Below are positions 35,462 through 39,091 of a stretch of DNA of 64,000 nucleotides, one piece after another (position 1 is the first letter of the stretch; each line of letters begins with the position of its first letter). The stretch is from NCBI RefSeq assembly GCF_021631985.1, contig NZ_CP070225.1, positions 2,480,001 to 2,544,000 on the forward strand, given 5' to 3'. The notes beneath the pieces are model-generated. The model searched no databases, was not told the DNA's origin, and saw only the letters and a program-made list of their open reading frames with translations. This stretch comes from Sandaracinus amylolyticus (GTDB taxonomy: Bacteria > Myxococcota_A > Polyangia > Polyangiales > Sandaracinaceae). Made by a program: the position numbers and the translations under genes.

Positions 35462-36673
35462 TCAGTGCGACCAGTCCGCGTGCGATGCGGCGTGCTCCGC
35501 GATCGCGCAGGGGACGCGGTGGTTGCCGCCGATGTCGGCGAAACGGATCGCGCCCGCGAAGTCGCGGCCGTCGTGCTCCTGCACGAAGCTCACCGGCGTC
35601 GCCTGGCAGAGCCCGCTGGGGAAGCGCGCGATCGCGACGCCGCCCATCGCGCGCCGCAGGATGATGCCGGTGTGGCGGTGCCGGATCGTCTCCCAGTCGC
35701 TCGACGTGAGGCGCAGCGCGAGGAACGTCTCGGGCCAGCGGCGGCCCGCCGCGCCCTCCTGGAGCGCGCGGAACGCGGTGTCGCGGAGCGCGCGCTGGTT
35801 CATCGCGTCGGAGTGCGAGGTCAGCAGGCCGCGCACGATCCCGTCGAGGTACGCGTCCGCGGTGAGCGGCTCGGCGTGCAGCACGCGACGATCGGGGGCG
35901 TCGCTCTCGGGCGCGCTCTCCGCGAGCGCGATCGTGCCCGCTCGGAGCGTGCCGATGTACGCGGTCCCCGGCTGCGTGAGTGAGGGGTTCGGCCCGCCGA
36001 AGACCACGCGCCCGTCGCAGCCGATCGCCCAGAGGTGCGTGAGCTCGGTCTGCACCGCGAACGTCCCGCTCGCGCCCGGCGCGATCTCCACGCGCGTGTC
36101 GCCGTAGCCCTGACCGTCGTTCGTCTCGATGCGACAGATCGCGCTCGACGTCTGGTTCTCGAGCGTGACCTCGCCGCGATGCGGACCGCTCGGCTGCGCG
36201 GGCGCGGCGACCTCGGTGAAGCGCAGCTCGAAGGGCGCGCTCGTGCCCGCGCGGTAGGTGCCGACCCAGACCTGGTGCGCGCCCTCGGCGAACGCGCCCG
36301 CGACGCGTGGATTGCGCGAGCCGCCCGAGTCGTCGTCGCAGGCGAAGGTGCCGTCGGGGTGCTGCACCACGAGCGTCGTGTCGGCGCTCGAGGTGACGCG
36401 CAGCTCGAGGCCGTCGAAGGGCGCGCTCGCGTGGAGCACGAGGGTGGGCTCGTCGCCGATCGCACCGACGCACTCGCTCGAGAGCGCGTTCGCGGCGCGC
36501 GCGCCGCTCGCGGTGCCGGTGATCACGTTCGCGTCGGTCGAGAAGCCGCGATCGAGCGTGAGCTCGGTGCTCGCGGTCGAAGTGGTCGGCTCGGCGGCAC
36601 GGCCGCGGCCGAGCAGCGAGCACCCGGTGAGCGAGACGAGCGCGAGCGCGATCACGATCGAGCGATGGTTCAT
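35462..36673 (-). CDS. Lipoprotein with PPC-like beta domain, putative target of the adjacent regulator
   Basis: ATG 36673 has a strong ribosome site (AGGAGG on the minus strand, 36689-36684). The 403-residue product begins MNHRSIVIALALVSLTGC, a lipobox. The region about 45-155 resembles a pre-peptidase C-terminal (PPC) beta-sandwich: FDGLELRVTSSADTTLVV, GTFACDDDSGGSRNPRV and GAHQVWVGTYRAGTSAPFEL. A second beta-rich unit (GEVTLENQTSSAICRIET) and a mixed C-terminal region of about 150 residues follow. It is divergent from the pseudokinase regulator, and a CTTAC direct repeat lies midway between them (36731-36746). Confidence 0.75.
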   Translation of the reverse strand: MNHRSIVIALALVSLTGCSLLGRGRAAEPTTSTASTELTLDRGFSTDANVITGTASGARAANALSSECVGAIGDEPTLVLHASAPFDGLELRVTSSADTTLVVQHPDGTFACDDDSGGSRNPRVAGAFAEGAHQVWVGTYRAGTSAPFELRFTEVAAPAQPSGPHRGEVTLENQTSSAICRIETNDGQGYGDTRVEIAPGASGTFAVQTELTHLWAIGCDGRVVFGGPNPSLTQPGTAYIGTLRAGTIALAESAPESDAPDRRVLHAEPLTADAYLDGIVRGLLTSHSDAMNQRALRDTAFRALQEGAAGRRWPETFLALRLTSSDWETIRHRHTGIILRRAMGGVAIARFPSGLCQATPVSFVQEHDGRDFAGAIRFADIGGNHRVPCAIAEHAASHADWSH

Positions 36674-36697
36674 CGTGCGTGTTCCTCCTGGCTGCGT

Positions 36698-36703
36698 CGT
36701 ATC
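36698..36703 (-). promoter_or_regulatory. Candidate -10 box of the 35462-36673 lipoprotein gene
   Basis: On the minus strand, GATACG matches the -10 consensus loosely. It is centred 38 bp from the centre of the CTTAC direct repeat, the same distance as the divergent -10 box at 36774. The ribosome site and ATG follow 9 and 25 nt later. Confidence 0.35.
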
Positions 36704-36730: not shown

Positions 36731-36746
36731 GTAAGGAGTCGTAAGG
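36731..36746. promoter_or_regulatory. Putative operator: two CCTTAC half-sites, 10-bp spacing
   Basis: On the plus strand GTAAGG occurs at 36731-36736 and again at 36741-36746, one helical turn apart. Read on the minus strand this is CCTTAC-n4-CCTTAC. Direct repeats at 10 or 11 bp are the usual binding pattern of paired OmpR/PhoB-type domains. The same pattern occurs at 38003-38018. It sits midway between the two divergent -10 candidates (38 bp to each centre). Confidence 0.6.
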
Positions 36747-36773
36747 AGGGGCGCAACGCGCGGGCGCGGTCCG

Positions 36774-36779
36774 TATACT
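36774..36779 (+). promoter_or_regulatory. -10 box of the pseudokinase regulator gene
   Basis: TATACT, close to the TATAAT consensus and rare in this GC-rich DNA, ends 11 nt before ATG 36791. No -35 match is found at the expected position, which fits activation from the upstream direct repeat. The mRNA would have a leader of about five bases and no ribosome site. Confidence 0.5.
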
Positions 36780-36790
36780 CGGCGCGCTGG

Positions 36791-37999
36791 ATGCTCACGG
36801 AGAACGCGCTCCACCGGGCCTACCGCGACATCACGCTGCTGCGCGCGAACCTCGGGTTCCGCTTGCTCGCGGCGCGCCGTGTCGGGGATGGCCGCGCGTG
36901 TGTGCTCGTCGCGCCGAACCGCCTGCGCGATCCCGCGCGATCCCGCGCTGCGCTCGAGCGGGCGGCGGCGGCGCACGCGCGGATCGAGCACCCCGCGGTG
37001 CCGCGTACGACGCGGCTGCACGAGGTCGAAGGGCGACCCGTGCTCGAGCTCGAGTGCCACGCGATCGCCGATGGGCTCGAGCTGCTCCGGCGGCTCTCGG
37101 CGAGCGGCACGTTGATCCCGTACACGGCGGCCGACGGGTTCATCGTCGGGCTGCGCGTCGCGCTCCAGGCCGCGCACCGCGTCGGGCTCTGCCTCGGGCG
37201 GATCTCCAATGCGAACGTGCTCTTCGGGCCCGACGGACGCCTTCATCTCGTCGGCTTCGGCCACAATTTCGCGCTCGAGGACGAGAACGGGCTGCCCGAG
37301 CCGAGCATCCCGCAATTCGCCGCGCCCGAGCTCGCGATGGGCGGCGCCGCGAGCCCCTCGGGCGACTACGTCGCGCTGCTCGCGCTGATGCGCGCCGGCA
37401 TCCCGATGGTCGACACCACCGGCGCGATGCGGCGTGTCCTCGGAGCGATCGCGACCCGCACCGACGCGGCGCTGCTCGAGCTGGTGCTCTGGGTCGAGCG
37501 GCGCGTGATGTCGGCGATGCCCGACGCGCGCGCGAGCATCGACGAATCGGTGGCGACCGCCGATCGCATCCGCGCGCTGCTCGGTGTCGAGCCGGACCAC
37601 GCGGGGTTCGCCGCGCTCGCGGCGCGCACGCTGCGCGATCCCGCGATGGGCGAGGCGCTCGTCGCGCGCGGACCGAGCGGGCAGCCCTCGCTCGTCGTCG
37701 GGCCCGACGCCGAGTGGATCCAGTGGGACGAGGAGCGACGGCGGCTGCGTGGTCCGATGCGCCGCGTGCTGCTCGTGCTCGTCGAGAAACAGCAGCTCGG
37801 CTCGCCCGAGCCGGTGCGCACGGTGGATCTCGCGGAGGTCGGCTGGCCCGACGAGCAGGCGGAGCACGAGTCCGCGCTGAACCGCGTCTACGTGACGATG
37901 AACCGGCTGCGCAAGGTGCTGCCCGAGGGCAGCGTCGAGCGGTTCGACGACGGCTATCGACTGCGGCCCGAGGTCGCGGTGCATCGCGTCGGCGTCTGA
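36791..37999 (+). CDS. Pseudokinase fused to OmpR-type winged-helix DNA-binding domain
   Basis: The 402-residue protein has an N-terminal region with the shape of a Ser/Thr kinase fold (about 10-290), but the catalytic motifs are lost: LGRISNANVLFGPDG stands where HRDxKPxN belongs, GFGHNF replaces DFG, and no VAIK lysine is seen. FAAPELAMGG still matches the APE region. Residues about 318-395 are a winged helix of the Trans_reg_C type: VLLVLVEKQQLGSPE, ESALNRVYVTMNRLRKVLPE (recognition helix) and the wing ERFDDGYRLRPEV. It should be a DNA-binding regulator whose pseudokinase part senses or binds something. Both flanking intergenic regions carry the same operator-like repeat. Confidence 0.8.
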   Translation: MLTENALHRAYRDITLLRANLGFRLLAARRVGDGRACVLVAPNRLRDPARSRAALERAAAAHARIEHPAVPRTTRLHEVEGRPVLELECHAIADGLELLRRLSASGTLIPYTAADGFIVGLRVALQAAHRVGLCLGRISNANVLFGPDGRLHLVGFGHNFALEDENGLPEPSIPQFAAPELAMGGAASPSGDYVALLALMRAGIPMVDTTGAMRRVLGAIATRTDAALLELVLWVERRVMSAMPDARASIDESVATADRIRALLGVEPDHAGFAALAARTLRDPAMGEALVARGPSGQPSLVVGPDAEWIQWDEERRRLRGPMRRVLLVLVEKQQLGSPEPVRTVDLAEVGWPDEQAEHESALNRVYVTMNRLRKVLPEGSVERFDDGYRLRPEVAVHRVGV

Positions 38000-38002
38000 T
38001 CG

Positions 38003-38018
38003 CCTTACACGCTCTTAC
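38003..38018 (+). promoter_or_regulatory. Second CTTAC direct repeat, upstream of the 38093 lipoprotein
   Basis: CCTTAC (38003-38008) and TCTTAC (38013-38018) form the same 10-bp-spaced direct repeat as at 36731-36746, in the same orientation relative to the downstream gene as the first site has to the 36673 gene. It is centred 40 bp upstream of TAGGGT (38048-38053), a weak -10 candidate. It begins 3 nt after the regulator stop codon. Confidence 0.6.
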
Positions 38019-38092
38019 GACGCGCGTCGTGCGCGCGCGCCGGCTCGTAGGGTGGCTCGTCTCCCACGTTCGTGGAGAAGGAGGGACGAGAC

Positions 38093-39091
38093 TTGAGAGC
38101 ATCGACGATCGCGCTCGGCATCGTGCTCGCGCTGGCGGGGTGTGGGGCCGAGAGCGCGCCGCCCGCGCAGACCGAGATCGCCGCGGCGCCCGCGCCGGCG
38201 CAGCCCAGCGTCGCGCCCGCGGCGGCCCCGAGCGGTACGCCGGAGGAGCGCTGCGAGGCGGTGGTGGAGCGGCACTGGACCGAGGCGCGCGCGATCCTGG
38301 AGGCGCTCGGCGCCACGGATGCGAGCGGGACCCGTGAGGCGTACCTCGCGCTGATGCCGCGCTACGCGAGCCGGTGCGCGGCGCTCGCGCCCGAGCGGCT
38401 CGACTGTCTGGAGCGCGCGGAGCGCACGCTCGACGGCATCGGTGCGTGCGCGGTGAACGAAGGGCTCTCGCTCGGCGATCAGCTGCGCCCGCCGCAGCTC
38501 CCGTGGCTCGTACCGAGCGCGATCCGCCCCGAGACGTTCTCGGGCGAAGGGCTCGCCGCCGATCGCGCGTCTGCGCTCTTCGCGTCGCTCGCGGGTACCT
38601 GGGAGCTGGGCGCGGAGCGCCTCTCGTTCGCGGCGGACGGCACGATCCGCGTGGAAGGTCGTCAGCCGGCCGAGCTGCGCGGGCGTGTGTTCGACGAGCG
38701 CGCGATCCGCGGTGAGCCGGTGGGCGAGGGGCGCGCGCGCAACCTCGTCGTGCTGCGCGCGGGCGACGAGCTCTTCGTGTCGAGCATCTACACGAGCCAG
38801 CCCTCGCCGATCGACGCGAGCGGGAGCGCGATGCTGATCCACGGCGACGAGGTGTTCGCGGCGCGCGGTCTGCGAGGCACGCCCGAGTGCAGCGGATGGA
38901 CCGAGCACGGCGCGCAGCTCGCCGAGGTGCACTGCGCGATCGAGAGCGAGCGTCTCGTGGTGCGCTATCGCGTGGGACGACAGGTCGACGGCACCGAGGC
39001 GACGAGCGAGCAGCGCATCTCGTTCCGCGTGCTCGAGCATCACGTCGCGCCCGACGAGGCGCGCCTCTGGTACCGGCGCGCTCAGCCGTAG
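38093..39091 (+). CDS. Lipoprotein of unknown function, putative target of the regulator
   Basis: TTG 38093 is preferred because AGGAGGG (38079-38085) lies 7 nt before it and it gives a clean lipoprotein signal, [20 protein letters not shown] 38072 is an alternative. The 332-residue product has an Ala/Pro-rich linker, a helical region with four Cys ([36 protein letters not shown]) and a beta-rich half around [20 protein letters not shown] that resembles a lipocalin-like barrel only loosely. No family recognised. The CTTAC repeat upstream links it to the regulator. Its last 10 bases overlap the converging gene. Confidence 0.7.

Follow-up and report, generated by a model that had tools for sequence, protein, structure and literature searches.

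Organization of the Locus and CTTAC Repeats

The analyzed window (the whole stretch of DNA under study, 64 kb in length) contains the gene of a putative regulator that is flanked on each side by a lipoprotein gene and by a pair of CTTAC words with 10-bp spacing. The locus raises the question of whether these repeats are the sites through which the regulator acts on its neighbors. Comparison of sequences indicates that the repeat is very probably a DNA switch by which the regulator controls the neighboring surface-lipoprotein genes, since rare matching repeats recur beside relatives of the regulator in other families. The features of the locus are as follows:

35462–36673, minus strand: lipoprotein A, 403 aa; signal peptide ending LTGC, read by eye
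36731–36746, minus strand: candidate operator 1, CCTTACGACTCCTTAC; intergenic, between lipoprotein A and the regulator
36791–37999, plus strand: regulator, 402 aa; predicted pseudokinase domain and C-terminal OmpR/PhoB-type winged helix
37676–37999, plus strand: DNA-binding domain as modelled alone, residues 296–402
37865–37918 of the window, plus strand: recognition helix, about residues 359–376, from the domain model
38003–38018, plus strand: candidate operator 2, CCTTACACGCTCTTAC; intergenic, between the regulator stop codon and lipoprotein B
38093–39091, plus strand: lipoprotein B, 332 aa, TTG start; signal peptide ending LAGC, read by eye

An earlier note had read the two repeats at 36731–36746 (minus strand) and 38003–38018, one between the regulator and a divergent lipoprotein and the other before the next lipoprotein. 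Both were found there, and the placement was reproduced from the coordinates. The CTTAC-N5-CTTAC pattern gave two matches in the 64-kb window versus a maximum of zero in 100 dinucleotide shuffles. In addition, among the 5-mers of the window with at least three A/T residues, only CTTAC (or its complement) forms repeated pairs at 10-bp spacing; the note had stated that the window holds no other pair with this spacing.

The genome-wide search that the note had proposed showed that the motif is not frequent: the whole genome (10,963,797 bases) contains exactly two copies, located 1.3 kb apart and both flanking the regulator gene. A reversed control pattern gave no exact copies in the 10.96-Mb genome. 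When one mismatch was allowed, 7 further places were found genome-wide versus 71 in total for the reversed pattern, so there is no halo of near-matches around CTTAC-N5-CTTAC. The chance expectation calculated from these 7 places over 30 possible one-letter changes is about 0.2 exact copies versus the 2 found. A Shine–Dalgarno artefact was also considered, because the plus strand of operator 1 carries AAGGAGG. Inspection by eye found no start codon after it at ribosome-binding distance, and this explanation was rejected.

Domain Structure of the Regulator

Pfam scanning of the regulator gave no family at the cut-off, the kinase match being sub-threshold (E 0.36). The N-terminal part was related to protein kinases by a sequence match to StkP (E 2.1e-7), and the best solved neighbors of the full-length model (six-sequence alignment; mean pLDDT 82.6) were also protein kinases, including the kinase domain of PknI (E 1.9e-8, TM 0.64 by target). 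Analysis of 19 aligned members, the window protein included, revealed that the beta-3 (VAIK) lysine, the HRD aspartate and the DFG aspartate are present in none of them, and the window regulator reads VLVAP, LGR and GFG where the VAIK lysine, HRD and DFG are expected. The residues that mark an active Hanks-type kinase are thus missing. Other positions are kept, namely the glycine after the HRD-like position (19/19), the arginine next to it (17/19), N or D at the position of a later kinase-motif asparagine (17/19) and A-x-E of the APE motif. By sequence and model, the N-terminal domain is a predicted pseudokinase with a kinase fold and lost catalytic residues.

The C-terminal domain modelled alone (pLDDT 93.1) was similar to CovR (Z 12.0 over 90 residues, 2.5 Å), PmrA (Z 11.0), KdpE (Z 10.5) and PhoB (1qqi; Z 10.2 over 88 residues, 2.1 Å). 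With its N-terminal strands, three helices and C-terminal hairpin, together with these matches to solved members, it has the OmpR/PhoB effector fold, and the "pseudokinase-winged-helix" label of the earlier note proved right for both halves of the protein. The Pfam family PF00486 (Trans_reg_C) gave no match to the window protein at E ≤ 0.1; the best value, seen in a search in which 2 of the 19 members matched, was E 0.071, and the gathering score was not reached. Comparison of a 15-member profile of the DNA-binding domain with solved structures gave CarR (E 0.0053) and, as the second match, AfsR (E 0.013), and AfsR was also found at Foldseek rank 3 (E 1.1e-3). A receiver domain with a phospho-acceptor aspartate was not found, the N-terminal part matching protein kinases by both sequence and fold. 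Because this domain is missing, the regulator is not a response regulator.

Repeats beside Related Regulators

Matches to the regulator at E ≤ 1e-35 were found in 22 of 183 genomes of the order, and a profile search at E ≤ 1e-25 gave matches in 21 of 377 genomes drawn from the phylum, some of them covering part of the protein only. A search of both same-genus genomes (G012 and G030) revealed no close orthologue. The comparison in relatives proposed in the earlier note was possible in other families, where the repeat is kept beside related regulators with different neighboring genes.

Exact CTTAC repeats within 250 bp of the regulator were found, outside the window genome, in G041 and G127. In G041 (47% identical) the site CCTTACATGCCCTTAC is located between the regulator homologue and a divergent 92-aa secreted protein. 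In G127 (44%) the site CCTTACAAGATCTTAC is located between the regulator 3′ end and a downstream 555-aa lipoprotein, in the same layout as operator 2. The G127 homologue itself (L055, 6108–7343) has an in-frame TGA in the winged helix, after which the frame is stop-free into the lipoprotein; this is a pseudogene or an assembly error.

Three genomes, G107, G106 and G116 (44–45%), contain CTTACAGGNCCTTTC at 273–286 bp from the regulator, upstream of an ORF of 65 to 67 aa. This sequence is the sole CTTACN4YCTTWC match genome-wide in G107 and in G116 and one of four in G106. The regulator in these genomes is divergent from, or near, a group of genes that we take to be VgrG/PAAR/FHA-like. The small ORFs at these loci (L056, L057, L058) contain paired cysteines and were missed by the gene caller.

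In G033, one of the two CTTACN4YCTTWC matches in the genome, CTTACCAGTTCTTTC, lies between the regulator and a homologue of lipoprotein A. At the second regulator homologue of G041, CTGACACTTCCTGAC precedes the lipoprotein-A homologue of that locus and is 615 bp away from the regulator. The first homologue of G166 has CTGAAATGATCTGAC at the regulator start, and the one exact copy in the 16 Mb of this genome is located 4.7 kb from the second homologue (G166-C2). In some relatives the site is found at the other end of the regulator gene. As a separate observation, CTTAC, CTTTC, CTGTT and CTTTC follow each other at exact 10-bp steps upstream of the lipoprotein-A homologue of G033 (L060, 5779–5813), which suggests a longer array of four half-site-like words.

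The CTTACN4YCTTWC pattern was matched in all 12 genomes searched. One match each was found in G107, G116, G127 and G166, two in the window genome (G000) and in G033, four in G106 and five in G041, and all of these genomes except G166 have at least one match no more than 300 bp from the regulator. Matches away from the regulator were found in G005 (1), G012 (1), G045 (2) and G002 (3).

The search was also performed with CTKAC-N5-CTKAC, with at most one mismatch. A site within 700 bp was found at 9 of 11 near homologue loci (window included; operators 1 and 2 taken together as one locus). The 700-bp flanks of the 11 loci (15.8 kb) contain 10 such sites, 5 of them exact, while the gene bodies (12.9 kb) contain none and the sequence beyond 1.5 kb (144.6 kb) contains two, one of which is the G166 site. 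Gaps other than 5 between the half-sites gave 0–3 sites. With CTTAC alone (one mismatch), there were 8 flank sites, 6 of them outside the window genome and in four lineages, G106, G107 and G116 being counted as one. Among 60 permuted half-sites, CTKAC ranked second with its 10 sites after CCKTA with 12; six of the latter are CTKAC sites shifted by one base, and the other six, which include one exact copy, are separate. Four choices were made after looking at the data, namely the CTGAC form, the near/far split, the nine core sites and the TAGNNT element described below.

No CTKAC-N5-CTKAC site was found in the 18.7 kb of flanks of 13 more distant homologue loci. Two distant homologues have a one-mismatch match farther out, within a gene at 1,239 bp for L084 and in intergenic DNA at 1,048 bp for L088. 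Both distances lie between the 700-bp flank and the 1.5-kb limit, so these matches enter neither count. Three later relatives gave no further support, in that G349 and G428 have no site near the regulator homologue and G231 has a one-mismatch site about 980 bp upstream. The G005 regulator locus has no CTKAC-N5-CTKAC site (at most one mismatch) within 700 bp. A repeat of another half-site, CAACG-N5-CAACG, was seen there by eye 33 bp upstream of the homologue (L059, 5637–5651, minus strand).

In the tree of 24 homologues, the "site" label (10 rows, G166-C2 included) needs 4 changes versus a shuffled mean of 8.0, and 1 of 500 shuffles was as low, near-copies helping this result. The site-bearing homologues are thus clustered in the tree but need not form one clade. 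The recognition-helix letters VYVT (G000, G041-C14, G127, G166-C2 and G033) were considered as a tracker of CTTAC. They are not a rule, because G107, G106 and G116 have VYVAL with CTTAC/CTTTC.

A search of 138 genomes for CCTTACN5CTTAC gave 43 places, spread over 30 genomes with no more than 3 in any of them except G041, which has 5; the reversed control gave about 115. Exact sites on contigs other than that of the regulator homologue, or about 31 kb away (G176), are present in G002, G024, G036, G045, G005, G133, G176, G154 and G021. The core set of 9 sites does not include them, and 12 of them served as a non-core comparison. Of those viewed with wide flanks, one locus in G024 and one in G002 have mraZ-like neighbors.

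Lipoproteins and Neighboring Genes

Two regulator homologues have a lipoprotein-A homologue next to them: in G033 the match is 35% over 252 aa, and at the second locus of G041 it is 35.6% over 149 aa. For lipoprotein B, no homologue was found at E ≤ 0.001 among the called genes of the homologue loci examined. Its similarity to the 326-aa lipoprotein of G041 (38%) covers 58 residues of the N-terminal part only, and homology is not claimed. The 555-aa lipoprotein is found next to the regulator in G127 and again in G166 (54%); a more distant relative of it adjoins the regulator in G154 (32% over 441 aa). A Pfam scan of nine neighboring secreted or lipoprotein products gave no family above the cut-off. 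The targets vary, and a neighboring secreted or lipoprotein gene is a recurring feature, its place being taken in G107, G106 and G116 by the VgrG/PAAR/FHA-like group.

Promoter Spacing

Candidate −10 elements of the three window genes were read as follows:

36774–36779, plus strand: candidate −10 of the regulator, TATACT, 11 nt before ATG; read from the sequence
36696–36703, minus strand: candidate −10 of lipoprotein A, GATACG (36698–36703) or TACGAC (36696–36701)
38048–38053, plus strand: candidate −10 of lipoprotein B, TAGGGT, at offset 29 beyond the repeat

The distances from the repeat were 38 bp for TATACT, 38 bp for GATACG and 40 bp for TAGGGT, the same values as in the earlier note, and no recognizable −35 hexamer was found for the regulator or lipoprotein B.

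One of the five exact sites of G041 lies upstream of the 92-aa secreted protein, and the other four each precede a lipoprotein gene (about 207, 978, 1312 and 326 aa); the lipoboxes and the longer start of the 207-aa lipoprotein were read by eye. At four of the five sites, in the GTAAG orientation, a TAGNNT element starts exactly 33 nt beyond the repeat, i.e., at 4 of the 9 core sites. The element was noticed by eye before the shuffle test, in which four TAGNNT at one offset over nine core sites occurred in none of 20,000 mononucleotide shuffles. A search of 20 genomes for the repeat, offset and TAGNNT with one mismatch allowed revealed four places in G041, all mismatch-free, and none in the other 19 genomes; the reversed control gave three in all across the 20 genomes.

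In the CTTAC orientation, TAGGGT of lipoprotein B, TACGAC of lipoprotein A and TACGCT of the 978-aa lipoprotein of G041 share offset 29. Three TA at one offset, as at +29, occurred in 122 of 20,000 shuffles and two TANNNT in 118 of 20,000; TAG alone was no better than chance in this orientation (14,828 of 20,000). Offsets of this size would fit an activator bound over the −35 region or just upstream of it. No TA element was found at +29 or +33 at the G127 and G166 sites, and none of the 12 non-core CTTAC sites has TANNNT at these offsets.

The TATACT of the regulator lies at offset 28, half a helical turn from the 33 that four G041 promoters share in the same orientation. That the regulator activates its own gene with this geometry is therefore doubtful. 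The earlier note had placed all candidate promoters on about the same helical face. This does not extend to the relatives, given the offsets of 28 and 33. A side observation concerns the 1312-aa lipoprotein of G041 (L052, 2077–6015), whose TAGGGT ends 7 nt before ATG, so that its transcript may be nearly leaderless.

Comparison with Known Systems

The regulator shares the winged-helix effector fold with OmpR/PhoB response regulators (CovR, PhoB, KdpE and CenR). It differs from them in having no receiver and, as the putative input module, a kinase fold without catalytic residues. Its candidate sites resemble those of CenR and KdpE in being direct-repeat half-sites about one turn apart and upstream of the promoter. 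CenR is reported to bind TGA-N8-TGA; the authors put the starts of the half-sites 10 bp apart and regard this as in line with other response regulators (PMC9275681). Counting the letters of this site gives a period of 11. The KdpE site is reported to be a pair of 6-bp direct repeats separated by 5 bp (PMC3264566).

The full-length model matches kinase folds first, which is a likeness to Hanks-type kinases (PknI, PknB, StkP) and pseudokinases. Unlike the Hanks-type kinases, the regulator is fused to a DNA-binding domain and has lost the beta-3 lysine and the HRD and DFG aspartates. SARP/AfsR activators have an N-terminal winged helix followed by a BTAD domain. The presence of AfsR among the matches of the DNA-binding domain, by both profile (E 0.013) and Foldseek (E 1.1e-3), is a likeness to this group, whereas the winged helix of the regulator is its last domain (residues 296–402). 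Among titles and abstract openings from a collection with few subscription journals, none described the fusion of a pseudokinase with an OmpR-type domain.

MraZ operators are 10-bp-spaced repeats, and the likeness of the CTTAC sites to them consists in direct repeats at one-turn spacing. They differ in the gene and protein involved, and the window genome has no exact copy outside the regulator locus. Pairs of CTTAC-N5-CTTAC were found in G024 (L067, about 6013) and G002 (L068, about 6072), 38–58 bp upstream of genes that we presume to be mraZ-like, and inside a longer 10-bp-phased repeat. Here almost the same word may have another use, as an operator for MraZ.

Proposed Mechanism and Alternatives

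We consider it highly likely that the 402-aa protein is a one-component regulator that binds the CTTAC repeat as a head-to-tail pair, most likely activating both lipoproteins and probably affecting its own gene. From the fold and the spacing, the C-terminal winged helix would bind CCTTAC-N4-YCTTAC head to tail, one subunit per CTTAC and on one helix face. The two sites are about 48–50 bp upstream of the likely transcription starts of lipoproteins A and B, so the regulator would most likely activate both, and via operator 1 it would probably also affect its own gene. The N-terminal dead kinase fold may serve as the input module in place of a receiver domain, and its input may be a bound ligand, a partner protein or a modification that other kinases make. 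Of the earlier proposal that the regulator controls both lipoproteins and itself, the lipoprotein part is supported by analogy with the G041 sites; control of its own gene is less sure, in view of the sites at the other gene end and of the offset of 28 rather than 33.

The same repeats would also be the regulator's operator if the protein, bound near −48, blocked the lipoprotein promoters and limited its own gene. We regard repression of this kind as unlikely. In its favor, the regulator's own −10 is half a turn off the spacing of the four G041 promoters, and this shift might suit a different effect there. In the usual layout of OmpR-family activation, sites lie upstream of the −10 at a near-constant distance and no −35 is recognizable; the window sites, upstream of candidate −10s at near-constant distances and with no recognizable −35 for the regulator and lipoprotein B, have this layout, and the identical offset of the four G041 promoters also argues against repression.

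It is still less probable that the repeats bind another factor, for instance MraZ or the product of a response-regulator gene at some other locus, and are near the regulator gene only by position. The 10-bp CTTAC repeats upstream of the mraZ-like genes in G002 and G024 mean that other proteins may use such repeats, and background copies exist in genomes without close regulator homologues. On the other hand, the regulator and the site stay together while the neighboring genes differ between genomes, and both copies in the window genome flank the regulator gene. The repeats might also have arisen by chance in GC-rich DNA, and 0–3 of them are found in many genomes of the order. This explanation was rejected as having very little probability, given the absence of matches in 100 window shuffles, the location of both genomic copies within 1.3 kb, the recurrence of the repeat beside regulator homologues and the fixed promoter offset in G041.

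The DNA recognition would be of a known kind and the pseudokinase input is what is new; the regulator probably activates small lipoprotein regulons. Regulator, operator, promoter spacing and targets form a complete testable unit for a pseudokinase that apparently controls transcription directly. We give about even chances to a broader proposal, namely an undescribed family of one-component regulators in myxobacteria and their relatives, in which a pseudokinase replaces the OmpR-type receiver and each copy runs a very small surface-lipoprotein regulon, with a phased repeat specific to that copy (CTTAC, CTGAC and variants) as its mark. The dead kinase would take its input by binding a ligand, a nucleotide or a partner, or by being modified. 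With so few sites (two in the window genome, five in G041), finding out what a bacterial pseudokinase senses would be inexpensive. Half-sites of the CTTAC, CTTTC or CTGAC form beside different homologues also provide a natural series for following how an OmpR-type recognition helix comes to read another DNA word.
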